Assembly (NCBI GenBank): GCA_016931415.1 | Contig: JAFGEW010000034.1 | Coordinates: 1 to 41,858 of the forward strand | DNA length: 41,858 nt | Reading direction: 5' to 3' | Source of the DNA: Verrucomicrobiota bacterium | GTDB lineage: Bacteria; Auribacterota; JABMQX01; JAFGEW01 | Shown here: positions 29,526 to 41,696 of the stretch, piece by piece | Numbering within the stretch: the stretch's first letter is position 1 | How the letters are laid out: the number at the start of each line of letters is the position of its first letter | Notes under the pieces: generated by a model | What the model was told of the DNA's origin: nothing | The model's database searches: none | The model's input: the letters and a program-made list of their open reading frames with translations, nothing else | Position numbers and translations under genes: made by a program

Positions 29526-30812
29526 TCACGCTCCCCCATTGACGCCGAGAAGTGCGCGGGCCTTCTCGACGATCTCGTGCGGCGCCCACAGTTCGCTGGT
29601 CACCTTGGTCATTGAGTGCACGCGGGCATGGCCCGAAGCGGCGCGTTCGACCTCGCGCACCATCTGGCCCATGTTGAGCTCCGGTACGATGAGGTGCTTG
29701 GCCTGCGCGGCGGCTTCGCGGATCACGGCGGTCGGGAACGGCCAGAGGATGACGAGCCGGATCATGCCGAGCTTGAGGCCCTCGGCGCGGGCCAAGTCTA
29801 CGGCACCCTTGGCGGCGCGCGCCGACGAGCCGTACGCGACCAGCGCGATCTCGGCGTCGTCCATCTTGTAGTGTTCGACAAGCCGCAGCTCGGCGATGTC
29901 CTCGCTGATCTTGCGCGCGTGGCGGCGCAGCAGCTCGTCAATCTCCTCAAAAGCTTCGGTCGGGAAGCCCGTGCGGTTGTGCGTCAGCCCGGTGGCGTGG
30001 TAGCGGTAGCCGGTGCCGTAGGCGGCGAACGGCGGCACGTCGCCGAACCGGTCGTCGAACGGCAAATACTCGCCGGGGGGCACGCTCGGGGCCGTGCGCT
30101 CGAAGAGCGCGATCGCCTCGGGCGGCGGGATCTCGATCTTCTCGCGCATGTGGCCGGTGGCCTCCTCGAGCAGCAGCACCACCGGCGTGCGGTACTTCTC
30201 GGCGAGATTGAAGGACGTGATCGTCAGATCGAACGCGTCCTGGACCGAAGCGGCGGTGAGCACGATGATCGGGTAATCGCCGTGGCTGCCCCAGCGCGCC
30301 TGCATCACGTCGGCCTGGTGCGTCTTGGTCGGCAGCCCGGTCGAGGGACCGCCGCGCTGGACGTTGACGATGACGCACGGGGCCTCGAGCATGGCGGCCA
30401 GCCCGATGTTCTCGACCATGAGCGAGAAGCCCGGCCCGCTGGTGGCCGTCATGCTCTTGGCGCCCGCCATCGAGGCGCCGATGATGGCCGCCATCGAGGC
30501 GATCTCGTCTTCCATCTGGATAAAGCGGCCGCCGCGCTTGGGCAGCTCTTCGGAGATGATCTCGGCAATCTCGGTCGAGGGCGTGATCGGGTAGCCGGCG
30601 AAAAACCGAAGCCCGGCGGCTAACGCGCCACGGGCACAGGCCGCATTGCCCTGAACGAATATAGACGTGCTCTCTGCGGACCTTTGGCCCGCCGACTCCC
30701 GTTGTGCGGCTGTCTCCGTGGCATTCCCGCCGGCGTCGAACCGGCGGCCTCTGTCCTGTGTTGGGTCAGGAGCCGGCGGCTTTCTTCGCCTTCGGCTCGA
30801 GGAGGATGGCAT
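29526..30812 (-). CDS. korA: 2-oxoacid:ferredoxin oxidoreductase, alpha subunit
   Basis: The alpha subunit is clear from about residue 50: QGNAACARGALAAGLRFF, GYPITPSTEIAE, MEDEIASMAAIIGASMAGAK, TATSGPGFSLMVEN, PSTGLPTKTHQADV and the C-terminal PELNMGQMVREVE. There is no N-terminal gamma domain; that part is fused to beta downstream. The only ATG/GTG/TTG start in frame is 30812, which overlaps the ferredoxin gene by 47 bp and adds about 50 Arg/Ser-rich residues not expected in the family. A non-standard start (ATA or ATT near 30660) or translation coupling are the alternatives. Confidence 0.9.
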   Translation of the reverse strand: MPSSSSRRRRKPPAPDPTQDRGRRFDAGGNATETAAQRESAGQRSAESTSIFVQGNAACARGALAAGLRFFAGYPITPSTEIAEIISEELPKRGGRFIQMEDEIASMAAIIGASMAGAKSMTATSGPGFSLMVENIGLAAMLEAPCVIVNVQRGGPSTGLPTKTHQADVMQARWGSHGDYPIIVLTAASVQDAFDLTITSFNLAEKYRTPVVLLLEEATGHMREKIEIPPPEAIALFERTAPSVPPGEYLPFDDRFGDVPPFAAYGTGYRYHATGLTHNRTGFPTEAFEEIDELLRRHARKISEDIAELRLVEHYKMDDAEIALVAYGSSARAAKGAVDLARAEGLKLGMIRLVILWPFPTAVIREAAAQAKHLIVPELNMGQMVREVERAASGHARVHSMTKVTSELWAPHEIVEKARALLGVNGGA

Positions 30813-31047
30813 AGTCGGGGCAGTGCAGCGCGCAGATGTTGCACTGGATGCAGGCCTCGGGCGATTTGACGTAGACGCGCCCGGTCGGCTGCACGTCGAA
30901 GACGCTCTTGGGGCAGAGCTCGAAGCAGAGTTGGCAGCGCTTGCACCACGGCTCGTAGATGTCCACCGGGTGTGTGCGCATGTCGGCCAGACTCGGGAAC
31001 CGCTGCATCACGGGCATGCCCGGCGAGGTGTCCTGCCGCTTCGACAC
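30766..31047 (-). CDS. korD: 2x[4Fe-4S] ferredoxin subunit of the oxidoreductase
   Basis: This 93-aa ferredoxin has two complete cluster motifs: Cys35, 38, 41, 45 (CKRCQLCFELCP) and Cys66, 69, 72, 76 (CIQCNICALHCP). It is the delta-type subunit that carries electrons from the TPP/Fe-S core. AGGAGG lies 4 nt before the GTG start at 31047. It heads the order ferredoxin, alpha, beta-gamma, citrate synthase and is served by the promoter at 31093-31120. Confidence 0.93.
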   Translation of the reverse strand: MSKRQDTSPGMPVMQRFPSLADMRTHPVDIYEPWCKRCQLCFELCPKSVFDVQPTGRVYVKSPEACIQCNICALHCPDYAILLEPKAKKAAGS

Positions 31048-31092
31048 CGCTCCTCCTGTTGACCTGTTGTTCTCGGCGCCGTTTGGTTACGC

Positions 31093-31120
31093 AGTATAGC
31101 ACGCAATGAACCTGCGCCAA
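31093..31120 (-). promoter_or_regulatory. Extended -10 promoter of the ferredoxin oxidoreductase operon
   Basis: On the minus strand TTGGCG (31120-31115), a 16-bp spacer and TATACT (31098-31093) form a sigma-70-type promoter. TGC directly precedes the -10 box, giving an extended -10. The leader to the ferredoxin start would be about 40 nt. Confidence 0.55.
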
Positions 31121-31204
31121 CCTTTTTCGTTGAAAACGGTCCATCAAGACCCAAACATGGCGTCGAGATCGACCGGGTCCGATAACCCCGGAGGCGGAGA
31201 CACG

Positions 31205-32878
31205 ATGGCGACACGACGACGCGCCGAACGCACCGGCCCGCGCGACAAGCGCCGGCTGCGGCGTACCATCCAACTCGTGGTGCTTGCGCTGTTCCTTGTC
31301 GTGCTCGTCAACGCGAGCACGCCGATGAAGTTCCCCCTGCCGGTCGACACCTTCCTCCAGCTCTCGCCGCTCAACGCACTGGTGAGCAGCGTCGCTGGAC
31401 GAGGCCTTGTGCACGCCTGGTGGCTGGGGCTGATCGTGCTGGCGCTCACGCTCCCGCTGGGACGCTACTTCTGCGGCTGGGTGTGCCCACTGGGAACCAC
31501 GCTCGACATCACCGACCGCCTCTTCCGGCGCGCGCGCCGCCGACAGCGTCGCGAGCTGGGCCGCAACCTGCATCACGGCAAGTACCTCGTGCTTGGTGTG
31601 CTCATTGCCCTGGCGGTGTTCTCGGTCAACCTGGCGGGCTGGTTCGACCCGTTGAGCTGGGTGACACGCTTCTACGGGCTGGTGGTCCACCCGGGCGCCT
31701 ACTGGCTTGCGCGGTTCCTGGGCGTCACGAGATCGGGATTCCTGGAACGATACCTGTTTCATCCGCAGTTGGAGCCGGGCACGTTCGCGCAGCCGCACTT
31801 CGAGTATGCGGCGACCATCGCCTTGGTGTTCGTCGGCATCGTGCTGCTCGGGCTGATGCGCAGGCGGTTCTACTGCCGGGCAATCTGCCCGCTCGGGGCA
31901 CTGTTCGCCGTCTGCACGAGGATCAGCCCGTTGCGGCGCAAAGTCAGCGATGCGTGCACCGAATGCGGGCGGTGCGTGACCGACTGTAAGATGGGCGCAA
32001 TCGGCCCGACCGGCAAAGGCACGCGCCACGGCGAGTGCATTCTGTGTCTCGACTGCGAGGCTGTCTGCCCGACCGCGGCGATCGCGTTCGATCCGGCGTA
32101 CGTCAAGCGAAAGCAGATGGCGCTCGTTTCAGAGGCGTTGCCGACGGATTTCTCGCGCCGCGAGCTGCTTGCGGCCCTCGTCGGCGGTGTCGCGGCGGCG
32201 CCGTTGTTCCGGCTCGCGTTTGCCGCCGAGGAGCCGTCGACGGGCGAGGGCATGCCGGCCAACGACCCGGCGGCGCGCGTGATTCGTCCGCCGGGCGCCG
32301 TGAGCGAACGGGCGTTCCTGGCCGCGTGTGTGCGCTGTGGCGCGTGCATGAAGGTCTGCCCCATCAACGCCATCCAGCCGGTGCTCTTTCAGCAGGGCCT
32401 CGAGTCGGTGTGGACGCCCACGATCGTGCCGCGTATCGGCTACTGCCAGTACCAGGGCGACTGCCGGTTGTGCATCCAGGCGTGCCCGACGCGCGCGCTC
32501 GGCGAGCTGACCGCCGAGGAGAAGAAACGCTTCGTCCTCGGCAAGGCACGCGTCGACCGCAATAAGTGCATCCCCTGGCGGGCGTGGTCCATCCACGGCG
32601 ACGCGGAGCATTGGAGCGATGCGTACAACTGCGGCGTGTGCGAGGAGCACTGCCCGTCGCGGTCCGCCGCGGACGGCGGCAAAGCGATCCGCTACGATGA
32701 CGTGCTTGGGCCCGAGGGCCACGTGTTCCGCCGCGTCTACGTCGAGCCGGAGGTCTGCGTCGGCTGCGGCCACTGCGAGCACGTCTGTCCCGTCGAGGGC
32801 GAGGCCGCCATCCGCGTCGCCCGCACCGCCCAGCGCGGGCCATCGCCGAAAATCTCGGGCGACGTGCAAGCCATGTAG
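31205..32878 (+). CDS. NapH-like membrane Fe-S protein fused to a Tat-type polyferredoxin
   Basis: The 557-aa protein combines two modules. The N-terminal membrane module (about four or five helices, 21-220) has the NapH/YccM motifs FCGWVCPLG (89-97) and YCRAICPLG (223-231), then two 4Fe-4S motifs (Cys251/254/257/261; Cys278/281/284/288). At 317-341 lies a twin-arginine-like sequence FSRRELLAALVGGVA. Behind it is a NapG/MauM-like ferredoxin domain with at least three further Cys motifs (CVRCGACMKVCP, CRLCIQACP, CVGCGHCEHVCP). It probably moves electrons across or along the membrane. GGAG lies 6 nt before ATG 31205. It diverges from the ferredoxin oxidoreductase operon. Confidence 0.88.
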   Translation: MATRRRAERTGPRDKRRLRRTIQLVVLALFLVVLVNASTPMKFPLPVDTFLQLSPLNALVSSVAGRGLVHAWWLGLIVLALTLPLGRYFCGWVCPLGTTLDITDRLFRRARRRQRRELGRNLHHGKYLVLGVLIALAVFSVNLAGWFDPLSWVTRFYGLVVHPGAYWLARFLGVTRSGFLERYLFHPQLEPGTFAQPHFEYAATIALVFVGIVLLGLMRRRFYCRAICPLGALFAVCTRISPLRRKVSDACTECGRCVTDCKMGAIGPTGKGTRHGECILCLDCEAVCPTAAIAFDPAYVKRKQMALVSEALPTDFSRRELLAALVGGVAAAPLFRLAFAAEEPSTGEGMPANDPAARVIRPPGAVSERAFLAACVRCGACMKVCPINAIQPVLFQQGLESVWTPTIVPRIGYCQYQGDCRLCIQACPTRALGELTAEEKKRFVLGKARVDRNKCIPWRAWSIHGDAEHWSDAYNCGVCEEHCPSRSAADGGKAIRYDDVLGPEGHVFRRVYVEPEVCVGCGHCEHVCPVEGEAAIRVARTAQRGPSPKISGDVQAM

Positions 32879-32928: not shown

Positions 32929-33513
32929 TCAACCCAATGCCGGAGCCTTGACGACGACAATGGGACGAGTCTGTCCAACCTCAACGCCCGCGGGGACTTC
33001 GCCCGTCGACCTGAAGTGCCTCAAGACGAGGCGTTTGTCAACCTGGAGGCTTCGAAATGCGTCGGGGACGCGGTCCTTGTCCACGACTCGCACTGAGGCC
33101 TGCGGCTGGCCAATGCTGACTCTGAAGCTGCCAACGGTTCGTTTGGTGTTGACGCCGAGCATCGCGGCAAGCGTGTCCTTGGCCGACCGGAGCGTGGCGG
33201 ACAACTGGTCGATCTCACGCTGGACGCCCGCAATCCGTGTCACGAGGTCCTGCAGAACCGGCTCGCTGGAGCTCAGTTGCGTCAGCTCTCCGCTCAGCAC
33301 GCCGATCATATCGCGCATCCTGGCGGCATGCGCGTTGCCGGCATGTGGGAGGCGCGTCTCGAGGAAGCATCGCATCGCCTGCAGGACCGTCGGATCCGGC
33401 GCGCTGCCGATCAAGCTGTTCAGCGACGGGCGCCATTCTTCGTCGGGCAGCTTGAGTACGGCTCGCAGTCGTGCAACCGACTCGTCGTTGAGCAAGAAGC
33501 TGTCAGCCGTCAT
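32929..33513 (-). CDS. Gp157-like (siphophage) family protein
   Basis: The 194-aa protein has a helical N-terminal half with a probable coiled coil (about 80-115, VLQDLVTRIAGVQREIDQL). Its C-terminal half has the pattern of siphovirus Gp157: RTVGSFRVSIGQPQASVRVV, then VPDAFRSLQVDKRLVLRHF and GEVPAGVEVGQTRPIVV. Gp157 genes are found in phages and linked to phage resistance in Streptococcus. No other phage gene is seen here. GGAGG lies 10 nt before ATG 33513. It ends close to the NapH fusion and stands alone on this strand. Confidence 0.65.
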   Translation of the reverse strand: MTADSFLLNDESVARLRAVLKLPDEEWRPSLNSLIGSAPDPTVLQAMRCFLETRLPHAGNAHAARMRDMIGVLSGELTQLSSSEPVLQDLVTRIAGVQREIDQLSATLRSAKDTLAAMLGVNTKRTVGSFRVSIGQPQASVRVVDKDRVPDAFRSLQVDKRLVLRHFRSTGEVPAGVEVGQTRPIVVVKAPALG

Positions 33514-33730: not shown

Positions 33731-33805
33731 CCTTGACGCCGCAGCGAGCATGTGAGACATGACAGGGCAGAGACTAACACATTGGCGCGGCTGGGAGAGA
33801 CGCCT
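33731..33805 (+). promoter_or_regulatory. Leader of module A with conserved CCTTGAC-N18-GACAT
   Basis: CCTTGAC (33731-33737) and GACAT (33756-33760) are 18 nt apart, and the GTG start follows exactly 75 nt after the first base. GGCGCGGCTGGGAGA near the end contains the ribosome site. The same spacing and blocks recur in modules B and C. The rest of the 33514-33805 gap shows no gene. Confidence 0.7.
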
Positions 33806-34549
33806 GTGAGCGAGCGGAAGCTCTACAAGACTCTTCAGATTGCGTTCACCGCAGCCACGCTGACATGCGTGGTTATCGCCGGCATGCTGTACGCCAACGG
33901 CACGACGGTGTTCAAGAAGAGGCACGCAGCGTGGGGCCTCCTGCGCAGCCAGGACTATGCCGCTGCCGTGAAAGCCCTCGAGGACTGCGTGGGAAGGCGC
34001 CCCAGGTCGTCCAGCTGTTGGGAGGGTCTGGCGATCGCGCGTTTCCACGCGGGCGACTTCAAGGGCGCGGCAGAGGCGCTCCGGACATGCTGGGCGCTCA
34101 GGCACGAAGCGGATATGCCTGGCACGGCCTCACATCTCGTCTATCTCCGCGCGCTGGAGCACGACGAGATCCCGGGTAGTGCGCTCCCGGGTCTTTTTAC
34201 CATCCACTCTCCCGGCGAACCACCGAAGGAGTATCGCGATGCCGGACGGAATCTCAGGCCGGGCAAGTACGCCGAGGCGGCGGCCAGCTTCGAGGCATGC
34301 CTCGGCCGGATGCCCGGGACGCCGGGCGAGGCCGACGCCCTCTGGGGCTTGGCCGTCGCGCGCTTCTTCATGGACGATTACACCGGCGCCCTTGAGGCCA
34401 TCGAGCGGATCCGCGTTGGATCCGACAAGGCGCCGAGTAAGGAGTTTGAGGCCGTGGTTGCCTACATCAGCGCGAGGGCCGAGGGGCGCTCACCTTCGGA
34501 GCCGATGCCACCGGTGCTGCGGCACCATGTTCCTCGGGGAAGAAAGTGA
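33806..34549 (+). CDS. Module A: membrane-anchored TPR protein
   Basis: The 247-aa protein has a short N-terminal leader (SERKLYKTLQ), one transmembrane helix (about 10-32) and two TPR blocks. The first is AAWGLLRSQDYAAAVKALED; the second is KYAEAAASFEACLGRMP then ADALWGLAVARFFMDDYTGA. It is clearly homologous to module B (EACxGRMPGxPG, DALWGxAxARF, RIR). GTG 33806 is fixed by the identical 75-nt leader of all three modules and GGGAGA upstream. It is followed after 3 nt by the second gene. The TPR part should face away from the membrane and bind proteins; function is unknown. Confidence 0.8.
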   Translation: MSERKLYKTLQIAFTAATLTCVVIAGMLYANGTTVFKKRHAAWGLLRSQDYAAAVKALEDCVGRRPRSSSCWEGLAIARFHAGDFKGAAEALRTCWALRHEADMPGTASHLVYLRALEHDEIPGSALPGLFTIHSPGEPPKEYRDAGRNLRPGKYAEAAASFEACLGRMPGTPGEADALWGLAVARFFMDDYTGALEAIERIRVGSDKAPSKEFEAVVAYISARAEGRSPSEPMPPVLRHHVPRGRK

Positions 34550-34552
34550 ACG

Positions 34553-34897
34553 ATGGCGGCACGTATCTTCAACACCACGCGCGTACGACTTCTCGTTCTC
34601 GGGCTGTGGACACTGCTCGTCGTGGCGGTCGGTGCGTATCATCATCTGCGGTTCGAGGTAGTCCGGCGCGCGTGGTGGCATGAAGGCTCTTTCCCGTTCT
34701 ACCCTGCATGGCTGCTGTTCCTCGACGTCCTGCTGATCGCGGCGGGATTCGGGCTGCTGTCGATCGGCGCCATTACCGGGCGGACGCGCAGCCAGCGGTT
34801 CTGGTACACCTCCTGGGTCGGATTCATGTGTTTTGCAGCGGCGGGCAACGTCGTATTCGATGCGTGGCGGCAGCTTCTCTACACGATACTCAACTGA
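34553..34897 (+). CDS. Module A: small membrane protein, family 2
   Basis: The 114-aa protein has three predicted transmembrane helices. Features shared with modules B and C are LGLWTLLVV in the first helix, an Arg soon after it, then AGFGLLS, a GRT turn, and W..YVG-like and FDA residues near the end. No known domain is recognised. It lies between the TPR gene and the family 3 gene and is almost certainly co-expressed with both. Confidence 0.78.
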   Translation: MAARIFNTTRVRLLVLGLWTLLVVAVGAYHHLRFEVVRRAWWHEGSFPFYPAWLLFLDVLLIAAGFGLLSIGAITGRTRSQRFWYTSWVGFMCFAAAGNVVFDAWRQLLYTILN

Positions 34898-34909
34898 AGG
34901 ATGCGGGCG

Positions 34910-35287
34910 ATGGCGGAGACAGCGCAGACACGACGGGTCCTCGGGATGCGCGTCCGGCCCAGGTGGCCCCTCGGCTGGCCGCTCTTTCTCACCACATTGC
35001 CGTCGTACCTGGGCTTCGCGATGTGCGGCGTCGGGTTCCGGAAGGCGTCGCTGGGGCAGGGTGTCGTGCACGATACCTTCATGCTCATGGCTGGCCCGCC
35101 CGTTGTGTGGCTCATCGCTGCCCTCTGGCTGGGTCTAGATCTCTGGATCCTCTACCGCGTGCGGCGAGCCTGGTGGACCGACGGCGAGCCGGCACGTCCG
35201 CTGAAGCTGTTCTTCGTGTGGCAAGTGACCAAGATCGCCTTCTGCCTGGTCTACCCGGCGCTGGTGTACGCGTACTTCCGTCCCTGA
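34910..35287 (+). CDS. Module A: small membrane protein, family 3
   Basis: The 125-aa protein has about three or four hydrophobic helices. The family 3 pattern is a WPL....P.Y opening (GWPLFLTTLPSYLG), VVWLIAALWLGLDLW in the middle, then EPARPLKLFFVWQVTKIAF. The EPARP and WQ.TK.AF blocks are the most conserved parts across the three modules. ATG 34910 has GAAGG 9 nt upstream; ATG 34901 is the alternative. No known function. Confidence 0.78.
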   Translation: MAETAQTRRVLGMRVRPRWPLGWPLFLTTLPSYLGFAMCGVGFRKASLGQGVVHDTFMLMAGPPVVWLIAALWLGLDLWILYRVRRAWWTDGEPARPLKLFFVWQVTKIAFCLVYPALVYAYFRP

Positions 35288-35289
35288 AA

Positions 35290-35364
35290 CCTTGACTCCT
35301 GGAGGCTCCCGGGCGACATGGGAGTGGAGAGACGAACATGTCGGCGCGGCTGGGAGATGCGCCC
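35290..35364 (+). promoter_or_regulatory. Leader of module B with conserved CCTTGAC-N18-GACAT
   Basis: CCTTGAC (35290-35296), 18 nt, GACAT (35315-35319), then GGCGCGGCTGGGAGA and GTG exactly 75 nt after the first base. The leader begins 3 nt after the last gene of module A. Confidence 0.7.
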
Positions 35365-36153
35365 GTGAACGAGCAGAAGCTGTACAGAATCCTGCAGGTC
35401 GTCTTCGGCGTCATTCTCGCCGGGTTGCTGATCCCGGCGCTGATCATCTTCGCCAACGGCAACCGCCTCCACCGCAAGTACTGGCGTGCGCTTGACGACC
35501 TCCAGCATGAGCGCTACCCGGAGGCAGTTGCGGGTCTCAGTCTGTGCGCCGAAGCAAGGCCGCATGACGCGGACGGCTGGTGGAGTCTGTCAATAGCTCG
35601 CTTCTATGTCGATGACGCTCAAGGCGCCCAAGCCGCCTTCGAGCGCTGCCTTGAGACTCGCGATTCGCTGCTGCCGGACAACGAGATCATCTGGCGCGAC
35701 TACTTCAGGGCATGTGCCGAGGGCGCCCTGCCTGTAGGGATGCTCCCGAGTTGGGTGTACCACCACCGTTGGAGGCGCATCCCAGACGCGTTCAACTCGG
35801 CCCTTCGCATCATGCGCACGGCGAGGGACGGTGGTGACGCCCATCGGGAGGCGGCTGAGGCGTTTGAGGCGTGCGTGGGGAGAATGCCCGGGAGGCCCGG
35901 CGACGTCGATGCGCTGTGGGGAGTGGCGATTGCGCGATTCCATGCCGGTGACTTCGAGGCGTCGCTCGAGGCCTTGGGCAGGATCCGCAACAACTGGGGC
36001 AAAGAGCCAGGCGAGCAGTTCGAAGCCGTTGTCGAGTATGTGAGGTCGTGCGTGCCCGATGAGCCGCGGCCGCTCGGCATGCCCCTCGTGCTGAGAGTGG
36101 GAGCGCCGTACGACGAACAGCAGCGCCAGAAAGCGGCAGCGGGGGAGCAATGA
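35365..36153 (+). CDS. Module B: membrane-anchored TPR protein
   Basis: The 262-aa protein has the same plan as module A: NEQKLYRILQ leader, one transmembrane helix (about 10-30), a TPR block (RYPEAVAGLSLCAEARPHDA and DAQGAQAAFERCLE), and a second block EAFEACVGRMPGRPG with DALWGVAIARFHAGDFEAS. The middle segment differs most from module A. GTG 35365 is set by the conserved leader. The last bases (ATGA) overlap the start of the next gene, so the two are translated together. Function unknown. Confidence 0.8.
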   Translation: MNEQKLYRILQVVFGVILAGLLIPALIIFANGNRLHRKYWRALDDLQHERYPEAVAGLSLCAEARPHDADGWWSLSIARFYVDDAQGAQAAFERCLETRDSLLPDNEIIWRDYFRACAEGALPVGMLPSWVYHHRWRRIPDAFNSALRIMRTARDGGDAHREAAEAFEACVGRMPGRPGDVDALWGVAIARFHAGDFEASLEALGRIRNNWGKEPGEQFEAVVEYVRSCVPDEPRPLGMPLVLRVGAPYDEQQRQKAAAGEQ

Positions 36154-36521
36154 TGGCCGGCGACGGGCTCAGAGCTAAGGACGAGATCGTCGTCCGGATG
36201 AAGATGGGGCCGACCATCCTTGGGCTGTGGACGATACTCGTCGTCGTCCTAGGGCTCTTCCATCACTGGCGCTTCGAACACTGGATGCGGTTGGAGTCCC
36301 CCAGGAACCTTCTCGTTCTCCCGTTCTGGCTTCTTGCCATGGACGCCGTGGTCATCGCCGGGGGATTTGGACTGCTCAGGATCAGGCCGGTAGGCGGTCG
36401 AACGCCCACCTGGCGGTACTGGGCGACGATCTACGTCGGCCTGATTGCCGTTGCCGCGATGGCGCTGCTGTTCTGGGACGCGCTGCGGTACATGTTCGTC
36501 GGTTCCTCCTACACAATGTGA
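36150..36521 (+). CDS. Module B: small membrane protein, family 2
   Basis: The 123-aa membrane protein has three helices and the family 2 features: LGLWTILVVVLG, HHWRFE, AGGFGLLR, a GGRTP turn, Y.GLIAVAA and a FWDALRY end. Compared with module A it has a longer N terminus (about 18 residues), so ATG 36153 or a start near 36198 is also possible. GGGGGAG lies just before the start. It overlaps the TPR gene stop by 4 bp. Confidence 0.78.
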   Translation: MMAGDGLRAKDEIVVRMKMGPTILGLWTILVVVLGLFHHWRFEHWMRLESPRNLLVLPFWLLAMDAVVIAGGFGLLRIRPVGGRTPTWRYWATIYVGLIAVAAMALLFWDALRYMFVGSSYTM

Positions 36522-36529
36522 GGCGGGTG

Positions 36530-36952
36530 ATGAAGCCAAACACAATCCTGGGGAAGGAACTCTGGCCGCGAGGCGTTATCCCCTGGAAGCGTCTCGCCTG
36601 GCCGCTCGTCATGTTGGCGGTGCCCGCCTACTACGGTCTCTTCCACTACGTCCGGCTGCTGAGCGGTGGCTTCCGGTACTCCAACTGGTCCCTGCACCCG
36701 GTCTGCCTCTTCCTCAGTCAGCCGCTCACCGTATGGACCGTCGCCGTTGTCTGGCTTGTCATCGATGCGCTGCTGTTCTTCTGGGCGTCCCGTTCGCTGT
36801 GGCGGCGCGAAGAGGCGGCTCGCCCGGCCGGGCTCTTCTTCCTGTGGCAAAGCACCAAGTTCGCTTTCTTCCTGTTCTACTTCTCGATCATGTTCACCCA
36901 TCGCCCCTTCCAACCGTTCTTCGATCTTTGCAGGGCAATCGCTGCGAGCTGA
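36530..36952 (+). CDS. Module B: small membrane protein, family 3
   Basis: The 140-aa membrane protein shares with its paralogues AWPLVMLAVPAYYG, CLFLSQPLTVWTVAVVWLVID, and AARPAGLFFLWQSTKFAFFLF. A Trp/Arg/Glu-rich loop (SLWRREEAARP) precedes the last helix. ATG 36530 has GAGG 6 nt upstream; the longer frame from 36227 runs over family 2 and is a shadow. Function unknown. Confidence 0.78.
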   Translation: MKPNTILGKELWPRGVIPWKRLAWPLVMLAVPAYYGLFHYVRLLSGGFRYSNWSLHPVCLFLSQPLTVWTVAVVWLVIDALLFFWASRSLWRREEAARPAGLFFLWQSTKFAFFLFYFSIMFTHRPFQPFFDLCRAIAAS

Positions 36953-37009
36953 GTCGGCGGCGTGGCACATGCGCCGAGGACTTGATCGCGTTCCTGTCGA
37001 CATGGTCGG

Positions 37010-37084
37010 CCTTGACGGGACAGCAGGTTCGGGCGACATAAGAGTACAGAGACCAACGCGTTGGCGCGGCAGGGAGAAGTGCTC
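37010..37084 (+). promoter_or_regulatory. Leader of module C with conserved CCTTGAC-N18-GACAT
   Basis: CCTTGAC (37010-37016), 18 nt, GACAT (37035-37039), then GGCGCGGCAGGGAGA and GTG exactly 75 nt after the first base. In modules A and B this leader serves a TPR gene; here it is joined directly to a family 2 gene. Confidence 0.7.
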
Positions 37085-37429
37085 GTGAGCCAGTGGGAAA
37101 CCATGAGTATCAGGACGCGCCTGATCATTCTTGGTGCTTGGACGCTACTTGTCGCGCTGTTGGTCTTGTTCCAGTTTCTGCGCTTGCACTACAAGATCGC
37201 GCAGCCACGCTACATGGACCCATGGCTCATCCCGACGTGGATCCCGTTGGCGACATTCGTGCTGGTGGGCGCCGGGTTCGGGCTTGTCTCCGCGAGGTGG
37301 ATGCTGGGGCGAACGCCTCTCGGACGCTGCTGGACCACCCTCTACGTTGGGATCGTCTCCCTGGCCGCGGTGTTCGCACTGGCATTCGATATGGCGCTGC
37401 ACGTGAGCTTGAGGGCGTCGCCGTGGTAA
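37085..37429 (+). CDS. Module C: small membrane protein, family 2, fused to the TPR leader
   Basis: The 114-aa membrane protein matches family 2: LGAWTLLVALLV, VGAGFGLVS, LGRTPLGRCW, TLYVG and AFDMAL. Its first codons (GTG AGC CAG) align with the first codons of the TPR genes in modules A and B, while MSIRTRL from ATG 37103 aligns with the family 2 start. This is what an in-frame deletion of a TPR gene would leave. Translation may start at GTG 37085 or ATG 37103. Confidence 0.78.
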   Translation: MSQWETMSIRTRLIILGAWTLLVALLVLFQFLRLHYKIAQPRYMDPWLIPTWIPLATFVLVGAGFGLVSARWMLGRTPLGRCWTTLYVGIVSLAAVFALAFDMALHVSLRASPW

Positions 37430-37445
37430 GCGCAGGAGGCGGGCC

Positions 37446-37847
37446 ATGAACTTGGGGGACATCTTTCGCGCGCAGCTCTGGCCTCCACGGAAGTACGCGT
37501 GGCCGCTCCTCGTGGTCACCGTGCCCATGTATGTCGTGCTGTTCCTGGTGGCTCATCCGTTGCGGGCGGGCCGGATTGGGCTCAACTGGCATGTTCACGA
37601 GTTCTGCATGTTCCTAAGCCGGACGCCAATTGTGTGGGCCTTGGCAGCTGTGTGGTTCGCCATGGACGTTGGCCTCGTCGTATGGATGGATCGAGCCCTG
37701 AACCGCGACGGTGAGCCGGCTCGGCCGGCCAGGTCGTTCCTTATGTGGCAGTTCACGAAGCTCGCCTTCCTCTTTCTGTTCTTCTCCGTCCTGATCGCGC
37801 ATGGGCCGCTCGACCACACGATCCTCGAGCACCCGACCTTCGAGTGA
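37446..37847 (+). CDS. Module C: small membrane protein, family 3
   Basis: The 133-aa membrane protein carries the family 3 blocks YAWPLLVVTVPMY, FLSRTPIVWALAAVWFAMD and EPARPARSFLMWQFTKLAFLF. AGGAGG lies 6 nt before the ATG. A few His residues (NWHVHEF; an ending with DHTILEH) are visible but are not conserved across the modules. It is the last gene of the tandem array. Confidence 0.78.
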   Translation: MNLGDIFRAQLWPPRKYAWPLLVVTVPMYVVLFLVAHPLRAGRIGLNWHVHEFCMFLSRTPIVWALAAVWFAMDVGLVVWMDRALNRDGEPARPARSFLMWQFTKLAFLFLFFSVLIAHGPLDHTILEHPTFE

Positions 37848-37943: not shown

Positions 37944-38609
37944 GTGATCGGCTATCTTGTCGCAGGCATCGTGGTGTCGTACCTGGTGGGGTCGGTGCCG
38001 TTTGCGTACGTGTTCGGGAAGCTGGTCCGGGGCGTTGACGTACGGCGCGTGGGCAGCGGCAACGTAGGCGGCACGAACCTGATGCGGTCAGCGGGCAAGG
38101 CCTGGGGCGCACTGGTGATCGCGCTCGATCTGGGCAAGGGGGCGTGTGCGGCGGGCCTGGTCGCCTGGCTGTTCTATCGCGACGGGATGCCGGTGAGCTA
38201 CGAGGTCTTTGGGGTCATCTGCGGCGCGATGGCGGTGGTTGGTCATAATTGGCCCGTCTGGCTGCGGTTCCACGGCGGCAAGGGGGTGGCGGCGAGCGTG
38301 GGCGTGTTCTTTGCGCTCACGCCGCTGGCGGCGGCGTGCGCATTGGGCGTGTGGTTCGTCGTGCTGGCGTTGACGCGCATCGTGTCGATCTCGTCGATGA
38401 TCGCGTCGCTGTCACTGACGGGATGGAACGTCCTGTTCGAGTCGCCACGGGCGTACACGATCGCCGGGCTGGTGCTCGCGCTGCTCATCGTGGTGATGCA
38501 TAGGGCCAACATCCGGCGTCTGCTCACGGGCACGGAGCTCAAGCCGTTCGGGCCCGTTGGGCCGAGCAGGAAGGAACCTGCCACGGAGGACACGGCGAGC
38601 ACGGAGTAG
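37944..38609 (+). CDS. plsY: Glycerol-3-phosphate acyltransferase PlsY
   Basis: PlsY transfers acyl groups from acyl-phosphate to glycerol-3-phosphate in the membrane, the first step of phospholipid synthesis. The three motifs are visible: VGSGNVGGTN (36-45), GHNWPVWLRFHGGKGVA (100-116) and a weaker C-terminal one (VVMHRANIRRLLTGTE). Five to seven hydrophobic helices and 221 aa fit the family. GTG 37944 has GGAGG 11 nt upstream. The tail after GTELKPFG is variable. Confidence 0.95.
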   Translation: MIGYLVAGIVVSYLVGSVPFAYVFGKLVRGVDVRRVGSGNVGGTNLMRSAGKAWGALVIALDLGKGACAAGLVAWLFYRDGMPVSYEVFGVICGAMAVVGHNWPVWLRFHGGKGVAASVGVFFALTPLAAACALGVWFVVLALTRIVSISSMIASLSLTGWNVLFESPRAYTIAGLVLALLIVVMHRANIRRLLTGTELKPFGPVGPSRKEPATEDTASTE

Positions 38610-38652: not shown

Positions 38653-38701
38653 GGGGTTTTGATGATGGTGGTGGATGCTTCCTTTTCGGAGAGTGGGCGG
38701 T

Positions 38702-39091
38702 ATGCAGACGCTCAAGACCCCTGACAAGCTGTACTATTCGATCGGCGAGGTCCGTGCGCTCACGGACCTCGAGCCGTATGTGCTGCGCTACTGGGAGTCG
38801 GAGTTCCCGCAGCTCAAGCCGAAGAAGAACAGCGGCGGCCAGCGTGCTTACCAGCGCAAGGACATCGAACTGATCCTGCGCATCAAAGAGCTGCTCTACG
38901 AGCAGGGTTACACGATCAAGGGGGCGCGCGCCCTGTTGCGCGGCGAGCGTCGTGGCAAGGGAGATGCATCGGGCAATGGCGGCGGGCGCACTGACGACAC
39001 GCGCGCGTTCCTCAAGAAGCTGCACACGGAGCTCGTGTCGCTGCAGAAGATGATCGCGGGCCACAAGCCCGAGGACCTGTTCGCCGAGTAG
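38702..39091 (+). CDS. MerR-family transcriptional regulator
   Basis: The 129-aa protein has an N-terminal MerR winged helix-turn-helix: YYSIGEVRALTDLEPYVLRYWE, then FPQLKPKKNSGGQRAYQRKDIELI and LYEQGYTIKGARALL. The short C-terminal part is a probable dimerisation coiled coil (RAFLKKLHTELVSLQKMI) without Cys or ligand-binding domain, so no metal or drug sensing is suggested. Such short MerR proteins are common housekeeping-linked regulators in several phyla. ATG 38702 is chosen; GGAGAG and GGGCGG lie upstream. The next gene starts 8 bp after its stop. Confidence 0.9.
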   Translation: MQTLKTPDKLYYSIGEVRALTDLEPYVLRYWESEFPQLKPKKNSGGQRAYQRKDIELILRIKELLYEQGYTIKGARALLRGERRGKGDASGNGGGRTDDTRAFLKKLHTELVSLQKMIAGHKPEDLFAE

Positions 39092-39098
39092 CCCGCGC

Positions 39099-41696
39099 AT
39101 GCATCAGACCCAGAAGTACCTGCTCATCGGCCCGATCGCGCTGTTCATCGCGTTCGGCGTGGCCGTCTACGTCAAGCGCCAAGCGTCGCGGCCGCGCAAC
39201 CCGGAGGCGCAGCTCCTCTTCGCCAAGCGGCTCGAAATGCGGCTTGGTGCCGATGCAACGGCCACCCAGGCCGAGTGGCAGTCGTGCCTCGATGCCTATG
39301 AGCGCATCTTCAAGGTCTGGCCCAAGAGCAAGGAGGTCCCCGAGGCCTACGCGTCCATCGGGCGCGTCTACAAGCAGCGGCTCAAGGATCCCGAGCAGGC
39401 GTTTGCTTGGTTCACGCGCGTCACGGAGGAATTCCCGGACTCGGAGGTGGCCGAGGGCGTGCGGGACGAACGGCGAGCGCTCGCCTACCACTACGCCGAG
39501 AGCGACGCGACGCTGCCCGAGTTTGCCGCCGCGCTCAGCGACTACGTCAACCACAATCCCGAGGCGTTCGATCTGGACAAGGTGCTGCGCGACCGTGGCA
39601 TAGCCTACCTCAAGCTTGGGCTGAGCGACGAGGCGATCGCCGATTTCGAGCGCATCATCGCCGAGTTCCCCAAGGGAAGCTGGGCCGACGACGCGGTGTT
39701 CTACATCGGCAAGGCGCACAACGAGCGCGGCGACGACGACAAGGCGCTCGAGCAATTCGACAGGCTCATCAAAGATTACCCGTCGAGCAACCAGATTGGC
39801 GTGGCGCGCCAGCGCGTGAGCCAGATCTGGGAGCGGCGCCTCGACGCGCGCCTCGACGAGTTTTTCAGGGTCCGCTACGGCGTCGAACGGGCGACGATGT
39901 TCTTCAACCCGCCGCGGCCCCTCTACGACGTCGATTCGAAGCAGGACGCCGAGCGCGTCGACGCGGCGCTCGCGCAGGCGCTTGATCTCGACTCGGCCGA
40001 GCTCAGCGTTGAGATCACCGGGACGACGCTGACGGTCACGGGGTCGCTCGTGATCAGGAACCCGTCTGCCGTCGAGGAGGCGGACCGTGCGGAAGACGGC
40101 GGCGAGGACGCGGCCGGAGATGAGAAGAAGAGCGACGATGAGCAGAAGGCGCCGACGGAAGCGAAAACGCTTTGGCTCCTGCTCAACGCAGGGATGGCGA
40201 TCGAGAGCCTGACGCAGGGCGAGACGGCGCTCGAGTTCAAGCGGGACAGGAATCTCGTCGAGGTGACACTGGCTGAGCCGATCGCCGTCGACGGACAGGC
40301 GACGCTTGCCTTCAGGGTCACCAACGGCGGCGAGGATGCCCCGGGGATCGTCATCGGCGAGAACACCGGTCACGCGTTCGCCGAAGCGTTCTGGTTCCCG
40401 ACGCTGACGCTCGATGACGCGTTTGAGTCCCGCATCAGCATCCGGCGCGAGAGCGAGGACGCGATCTCGAACGGCGCGAACATCCTCGCCCGGCCCCAGG
40501 GCCTTCTCGTCTGCACGTGCGCGCCGCCGGTCCAGGGCCGGTTTCTCGCGTACGGCTCCCGGCAGCGGGAGCAGGTGTCCTGGGGCGATCGGCAGTTGCT
40601 GTTCATGCATAGCGAAGGCACCCCGTCGGCGTCTGTTCAGGCCTTCCTCGACGAGGCGGTGAAGGCGGCCGATTACTTGCTCGGCGTGTTCGGCACGTAT
40701 CCGTACGACAAGATCGTTTTTGCGCAGAGCGCGGACGTGAAGGACACGGTGTTCGAGTACGGTGCGGGGTTGATCCTCATCAATGACTCGGTGCCGCTCG
40801 AGTCGATCAAGCCGGAGCAACTGTGCAACGTGCTCGTGCAGCAATGGTACGGCGCGCTCGTGCGGCCGATCAGCCGCGAGATGCTCTGGTACACGGCGGG
40901 CACGGCGAGCTACTACGAGACGCTCTACCTCGCACACCGCTACGGCAACGAGGCGATGGCCGCGCACTGGGCCGAGCTGCGGGCGCTCTACGACGAGCTG
41001 TTCGCGCACCTCGACCAGCGCGCGATGGCGTTCCGCCAGCGCGAGGAGAGCACGCGCATCTTCGACGCACTCGTCTACACCAAGGGCGCGTGGTTCCTGC
41101 GCGCGTTGCGCTGGGACATTGGAGCCGATGACGGCGCTCGCGGCGACGCGGCATTCGTCGAGGCCCAACGCGCGTTTTTTGCCAAGCAGTCTTTCAAGCC
41201 CGTGACGTTTCGCGACCTACGCGTCGAGTTCGACGAGGCCGCAGGCGACGAGTACGAGACGATGTTCGGCGCTTGGCTTCTCGGGGCAAGTGCGCCGTCA
41301 TTCACCGTCGAGGAGTGGACCAGCAGCCCCGTGTCCGAGGGGCCCATGCCTGACGCGGTGCCTCCCGAGGGGACGTCGGCGGACGAGACGCCGGGCGAGG
41401 AGTACGACGTCTTGTTCAAGCTCGCGCAGGCGACGACGCCCAAGTTTGCCCTCGCGGTCGAGGTGGCGTTCGAGGCCGGCGAGCAACGCGTCGTGCGCGT
41501 GGCGCGCATCACGAAGACCACCGAAGGCGAAGGCAAGGACGCGAAGGACGTCTGGTACGAGGCGTTCACGTTCGCCCTGCCGTTCGATCCCGAACGCATC
41601 GTGCTCGATCCGAACGAGCACCTCCTGTTCTCACCGAACGCTCAGCGCGTCTGGGACCGCTCCCAGCCCGACGAGAACCCCGCCGTCACGCCGTGA
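39099..41696 (+). CDS. TPR protein fused to a degenerate M1-aminopeptidase-like domain
   Basis: The 865-aa protein has an N-terminal transmembrane helix (about 7-24) and a TPR/BamD-like region (about 60-250: YASIGRVYKQRLKDPEQAFAW, FERIIAEFPKGSWADDAVFY, FDRLIKDYPSSNQ). An Asp/Glu/Lys linker (about 325-355) leads to an M1-peptidase-like region. The segment GTYPYDKIVFAQS and the following VFEYGAGLILIN match M1 architecture. The zinc motif HExxHxWxG is replaced by NVLVQQWYG (577-585), and the later Glu is Ala600 (LWYTAGTASYYE). It is therefore very probably not a peptidase. It follows the MerR gene by 8 bp. Confidence 0.8.
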   Translation: MHQTQKYLLIGPIALFIAFGVAVYVKRQASRPRNPEAQLLFAKRLEMRLGADATATQAEWQSCLDAYERIFKVWPKSKEVPEAYASIGRVYKQRLKDPEQAFAWFTRVTEEFPDSEVAEGVRDERRALAYHYAESDATLPEFAAALSDYVNHNPEAFDLDKVLRDRGIAYLKLGLSDEAIADFERIIAEFPKGSWADDAVFYIGKAHNERGDDDKALEQFDRLIKDYPSSNQIGVARQRVSQIWERRLDARLDEFFRVRYGVERATMFFNPPRPLYDVDSKQDAERVDAALAQALDLDSAELSVEITGTTLTVTGSLVIRNPSAVEEADRAEDGGEDAAGDEKKSDDEQKAPTEAKTLWLLLNAGMAIESLTQGETALEFKRDRNLVEVTLAEPIAVDGQATLAFRVTNGGEDAPGIVIGENTGHAFAEAFWFPTLTLDDAFESRISIRRESEDAISNGANILARPQGLLVCTCAPPVQGRFLAYGSRQREQVSWGDRQLLFMHSEGTPSASVQAFLDEAVKAADYLLGVFGTYPYDKIVFAQSADVKDTVFEYGAGLILINDSVPLESIKPEQLCNVLVQQWYGALVRPISREMLWYTAGTASYYETLYLAHRYGNEAMAAHWAELRALYDELFAHLDQRAMAFRQREESTRIFDALVYTKGAWFLRALRWDIGADDGARGDAAFVEAQRAFFAKQSFKPVTFRDLRVEFDEAAGDEYETMFGAWLLGASAPSFTVEEWTSSPVSEGPMPDAVPPEGTSADETPGEEYDVLFKLAQATTPKFALAVEVAFEAGEQRVVRVARITKTTEGEGKDAKDVWYEAFTFALPFDPERIVLDPNEHLLFSPNAQRVWDRSQPDENPAVTP

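Follow-up and report, generated by a model that had tools for sequence, protein, structure and literature searches.

A tandem array of three anciently duplicated modules of predicted membrane proteins behind a shared leader in an Auribacterota genome

Eight intact open genes, all on the plus strand, lie head to tail in three modules at positions 33731-37847 of the window (the whole stretch of DNA that was analysed, 41,858 nucleotides). The three modules are old paralogous copies of one gene set, and each is headed by the same leader. Modules A and B carry a gene for a tetratricopeptide-repeat (TPR) protein followed by genes for two small proteins, here called fam2 and fam3, and module C carries fam2 and fam3 without the TPR gene. 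Our preferred reading, which we hold to be roughly an even call, is that the array is an old co-regulated operon for a membrane-anchored TPR scaffold and two three-helix partners, triplicated in one lineage. The host genome (4.06 Mb in 134 contigs, 98.9% complete) carries the array on contig 34.

The array and its proteins

Module A, 33731-35287, plus strand: TPR, fam2 and fam3 genes, in that order
Leader A, 33731..33805, plus strand: 75 nt directly before GTG 33806
TPR protein A, 33806..34549, plus strand: 247 aa, GTG start
fam2 A, 34553..34897, plus strand: 114 aa, three predicted membrane helices, the third weak
fam3 A, 34901..35287, plus strand: 128 aa, three predicted membrane helices
Module B, 35290-36952, plus strand: TPR, fam2 and fam3 genes, in that order
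Leader B, 35290..35364, plus strand: 75 nt before GTG 35365
TPR protein B, 35365..36153, plus strand: 262 aa, GTG start
fam2 B, 36150..36521, plus strand: 123 aa, start overlapping the TPR stop by 4 nt (ATGA)
fam3 B, 36530..36952, plus strand: 140 aa
Module C, 37010-37847, plus strand: fam2 and fam3 genes, in that order, without a TPR gene
Leader C, 37010..37084, plus strand: followed by about five TPR-like codons fused to fam2
fam2 C, 37085..37429, plus strand: 114 aa from GTG; its own ATG at 37103 is a possible start
fam3 C, 37446..37847, plus strand: 133 aa

The original prediction placed a three-module tandem array at these coordinates, and all eight reading frames proved open and intact. 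It also gave the modules a common plan. Gene order, protein families and leader are indeed alike in A, B and C, but the plan is incomplete in module C, where the TPR gene is absent. Neighboring genes are separated by 3 and 3 nt in module A, by the 4-nt ATGA overlap and then 8 nt in module B, and by 16 nt in module C. Such tight or overlapping junctions (3-16 nt) would fit one transcript per module. The window gave no Rfam match and no tRNA.

TPR proteins A and B each have one N-terminal hydrophobic helix, as judged by hydropathy, and two TPR blocks, which are an internal duplication (repeat z 13 in A and 7.7 in B). TPR A matches Pfam TPR_16 at E 2.2e-12, with 47.6 bits against a curated cut-off of 32.7. 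TPR B matches the same profile at E 2e-4, under the curated cut-off, and is classed as a tetratricopeptide-repeat protein from its homology to A together with sub-threshold matches. Positive charges flank the membrane helix on both sides and leave the orientation of the TPR domain across the membrane ambiguous. Three cysteines are conserved between the two proteins (C69, C103 and C173 in alignment numbering) and could pair in disulfides should the domain face away from the cytoplasm. An assignment as the outer-membrane lipoprotein BamD was rejected: TIGR03302 scored 27.1 bits against a cut-off of 81.4, and the N-terminus, MSERKLYKTLQ, is without a lipobox Cys.

Three hydrophobic segments are predicted in each of fam2 and fam3, the third of fam2 A falling under the cut-off used. 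The original prediction had called fam2 a three-helix protein and fam3 a membrane protein, and both descriptions agree with this; fam2 too is a predicted three-helix membrane protein, hence both small families are probably membrane-bound. Their charges suggest that the N-terminus is inside and the C-terminus outside in both. In fam2 the conserved features are LG.WT.LV, GFGL, GRT and an Asp where helix 3 ends. In fam3 they are WPL..P.Y, GEPARP (AARP in B) and WQ.TK.AF, along with three residues invariant in all copies: a His in the first loop, an Asp in helix 2 and a Lys in helix 3, the last within WQ.TK.AF. AlphaFold2 models made from three-sequence alignments consist mostly of three long helices in each protein, with low confidence (pLDDT 67.5 and 65.9), and a structure search with these low-confidence models matched no solved fold below E 0.8. 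The idea that fam2 and fam3 are diverged copies of one another was dropped (hhalign probability 0.2%, shuffle z 0.9-3.2).

Age of the copies, the leader and module C

Pairwise alignment gives 37% identity between TPR A and TPR B, 33-42% among the fam2 copies and 31-41% among the fam3 copies. Local-alignment scores of paralogue pairs lie 18-68 sd above those of shuffled sequences, and leave-one-out profiles, each built from two copies, recover the remaining one with E-values between 6e-15 and 1e-27 when scaled to 40,000 sequences. On these comparisons the paralogy of the module genes is beyond doubt. At fourfold sites within shared codons, copies have the same third base in 30-48% of cases, where the chance level from third-position composition is about 32-38%, and synonymous sites are essentially saturated. 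Second codon positions agree between copies in 54-69%. Near saturation of synonymous sites points to an old duplication whose proteins were kept by selection, and this agrees with the earlier view that the copies were maintained rather than recently duplicated.

The two small families differ in which copies are closest. In fam2, 19 positions are common to A and B only and 10 to B and C only, so that A and B are closest, while in fam3, 24 positions are common to B and C only against 13, so that B and C are closest (Fisher p = 0.025 for the contrast, a comparison picked after seeing the data). This suggests that the modules have not evolved strictly as units. The contrast would fit either faster change of fam2 in module C after loss of the TPR gene or exchange between modules, and we treat it as a lead only.

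The three leaders align over about 75 nt without gaps, at 67-69% pairwise identity. All three are identical in 42 of the 75 columns, where about 6 would be expected. The 100 nt that precede each leader show no relationship (21-31% identity). The shared elements are, in order, TTGAC, 18 nt, GACATR (GACATG in leader A), AGAGAC.AAC, GGCGCGGC.GGGAGA and GTG. The window holds three copies of TTGAC-N18-GACATR, where 0.02 would be expected. A longer pattern derived from the leader has exactly three matches in the whole genome, all in the array, and a control pattern has none. The leader that had been proposed as common to all modules is thus both real and, in this genome, confined to the array.

GGGAGA ends 7 nt ahead of GTG in all three modules and is probably the ribosome-binding site. 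Its position makes GTG the likely start, and GTG 33806 and GTG 35365 are probably the TPR start codons; earlier in-frame starts are possible at 33782 (TTG) in A and 35338 (ATG) in B. TTGAC resembles a -35 box and GACATR is poor as a -10 box; a consensus scan gave no call for a standard sigma-70 promoter in the leader. An RNA hairpin around the start site was also discarded, since folding was no better than for shuffled sequences (z 0.0 to 0.5). The most fitting interpretation of the leader is a promoter-plus-start region common to the modules, itself under selection while silent coding sites were randomised.

In module C the leader runs into about five TPR-like codons (GTG AGC CAG TGG GAA) and then into fam2. 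Module C matches A and B up to about TPR codon 5, where the likeness stops. This direct join of TPR leader and first TPR codons to fam2 suggests that the TPR gene was lost from C, most likely by a deletion which left fam2 behind the TPR start. Because C retains fam2 and fam3, the TPR protein seems at least dispensable there. The HHxRFE segment after helix 1 of fam2 is common to A and B and altered in C, which makes it a candidate contact for the TPR protein.

Relatives and genomic setting

The original prediction recognised no known system, and the searches point the same way. Neither fam2 nor fam3 had a match above cut-off in Pfam, NCBIfam, PHROGs or PADLOC, or a relative among PDB sequences, and profile searches with the array families found no transporter or secretion component. 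Matches below cut-off to Phage_holin_4_2 (19.1 bits against 28.8), a VKOR family (18.2 against 182) and CcmD (13.4 against 25.95) each span a single helix only. Among the PADLOC profiles for anti-phage defence the one match was a TPR match at E 0.039.

In the host genome, copies of fam2 and fam3 are limited to the three in the array. Profile searches of 383 other genomes, 43 of them from the same phylum, found no relative of either family, and hence none in which fam2 and fam3 occur apart. In the leave-one-out control, relatives at about 33% identity should clear the profile threshold by far. GTDB r220 and IMG/VR were also scanned with patterns, without a match; this is weaker evidence, as such scans require conserved peptides. 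Tblastn with fam3 against phages and with fam2 against plasmids gave no match. Several weak matches (L005, L007-L010, L013 and L085) were set aside as chance: they are off-frame with stops, lie in short or low-complexity frames, or are part of one large membrane protein. From these searches fam2 and fam3 appear to be lineage orphans. The nearest genome searched shares only its class with the host; thin sampling of the lineage thus accounts for part of the orphan status.

Next to the array on its upstream side, at 32929-33513 on the minus strand, is a single-copy gene for a 194-aa protein. Its matches to Siphovirus Gp157 (Pfam, E 0.0015) and Mu Gam-like end protection (PHROGs, E 0.0018) stay below threshold; the gene may be of phage origin, domesticated or left over. 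Further upstream, at 29526-32878, a 2-oxoacid:ferredoxin oxidoreductase alpha-type gene and a small ferredoxin gene (minus strand) stand beside a divergent gene for a 590-aa membrane polyferredoxin (plus strand). Directly after the array come plsY (37944-38609) and a MerR-type gene (38675-39091). Many other genomes of the phylum instead have open reading frames of about 430-470 and about 330-410 aa on either side of plsY, which suggests that the locus was rearranged in this lineage. In 20 other genomes of the phylum, no set of a TPR gene and small three-helix genes was found within about 1.5 kb of plsY, judged by ORF length and hydropathy only. At 39099-41696 an 865-aa protein joins N-terminal TPR repeats to an M1-like peptidase region (Pfam E 6e-9), and has only TPR-level or partial matches in the phylum.

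A possible membrane assembly, its alternatives and known systems

The co-regulated operon could have arisen and worked as follows, in a proposal that takes up the three-component complex put forward in the original prediction. A three-gene operon with its own conserved leader would have been duplicated in tandem long ago in the lineage, and the copies would then have diverged under purifying selection. In the third copy a deletion would have removed the TPR gene and set fam2 behind the TPR leader and start. Fam2 and fam3, which are adjacent and kept together in all three modules, would form the membrane core of a small inner-membrane assembly. The TPR protein would dock on this core and act as a scaffold to hold a client or partner protein, broadly as YfgM or LapB do. 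Paralogous modules may handle different clients, and module C may work without a scaffold or borrow the TPR protein of A or B. The bolder claim, that fam2 and fam3 are two new families forming an undescribed membrane machine with the TPR scaffold, present in three co-regulated versions of which one is scaffold-free, is tentative and on the doubtful side.

The modules could instead encode a small transporter, channel or redox unit in which fam2 and fam3 are the conducting or catalytic parts, with the Asp and Lys of fam3 involved in moving ions or protons and the TPR protein serving only to stabilise the unit. The invariant Asp, Lys and first-loop His of fam3 would suit such a unit, as would a TPR protein that module C can do without. 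However, a buried Asp and Lys may serve structure alone, none of the transporter, channel or redox families scored above cut-off (the weak matches being the single-helix ones), and no solved fold was matched, and we consider this unlikely.

It also seems improbable that there is no joint system, and that the genes encode unconnected small membrane proteins in a region that evolves fast and is specific to the lineage, co-duplicated as neighbors under one leader. The retention of fam2 and fam3 without the TPR gene in C and the differing closeness of the fam2 and fam3 copies, with the post hoc choice of that comparison, would both be expected of independent genes, but gene order was kept across a divergence that saturated synonymous sites, and fam2 and fam3 are adjacent every time. 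Finally, module C, which is shorter yet complete for fam2 and fam3, is very unlikely to be the ancestral two-gene form with the TPR gene inserted later in the ancestor of A and B: loss needs one event, and an ancestral C would account less simply for the TPR leader and start codons that C itself carries.

If the complex of TPR scaffold and fam2/fam3 core is true, the array is a natural experiment, with two complete modules and one TPR-less module behind the same leader, and it would reveal which stretches of fam2 need the TPR protein. Otherwise, the array contributes two orphan membrane families to a long list of lineage-specific genes from poorly sampled bacteria; orphan operons with small membrane proteins, specific to one lineage, are common.

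Three known systems resemble the array in part. In cytochrome c maturation, too, a TPR protein anchored in the membrane, CcmI/CycH, accompanies small membrane proteins. The match of TPR B to PF23914, the CcmH/CycH TPR profile (E 0.004), has 17.3 bits against a cut-off of 42, and there is no cytochrome c maturation gene among the typed neighbors of the array.

The small membrane protein LapA is encoded beside the membrane-anchored TPR protein LapB, and the array has the same pairing of a small membrane protein gene with a membrane-anchored TPR gene. It differs in having two small three-helix families in repeated modules, and its proteins match no LapB or LapA profile in Pfam or NCBIfam. LapA/LapB are described as acting in lipopolysaccharide assembly and LpxC turnover (PMC7730581).

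YfgM is described as acting with PpiD at the SecYEG translocon (PMC9643414). The array TPR proteins differ from it in having no TPR_21 match at E up to 1 (Pfam), and in their proposed partners, which are two three-helix orphan proteins where YfgM has PpiD; the PpiD and SecYEG genes are not linked to the array. Like YfgM, they have one membrane segment at the N-terminus and a TPR-type domain after it. YfgM is a membrane-anchored scaffold or chaperone in a complex, and we propose that the TPR proteins of the array may play a similar role.
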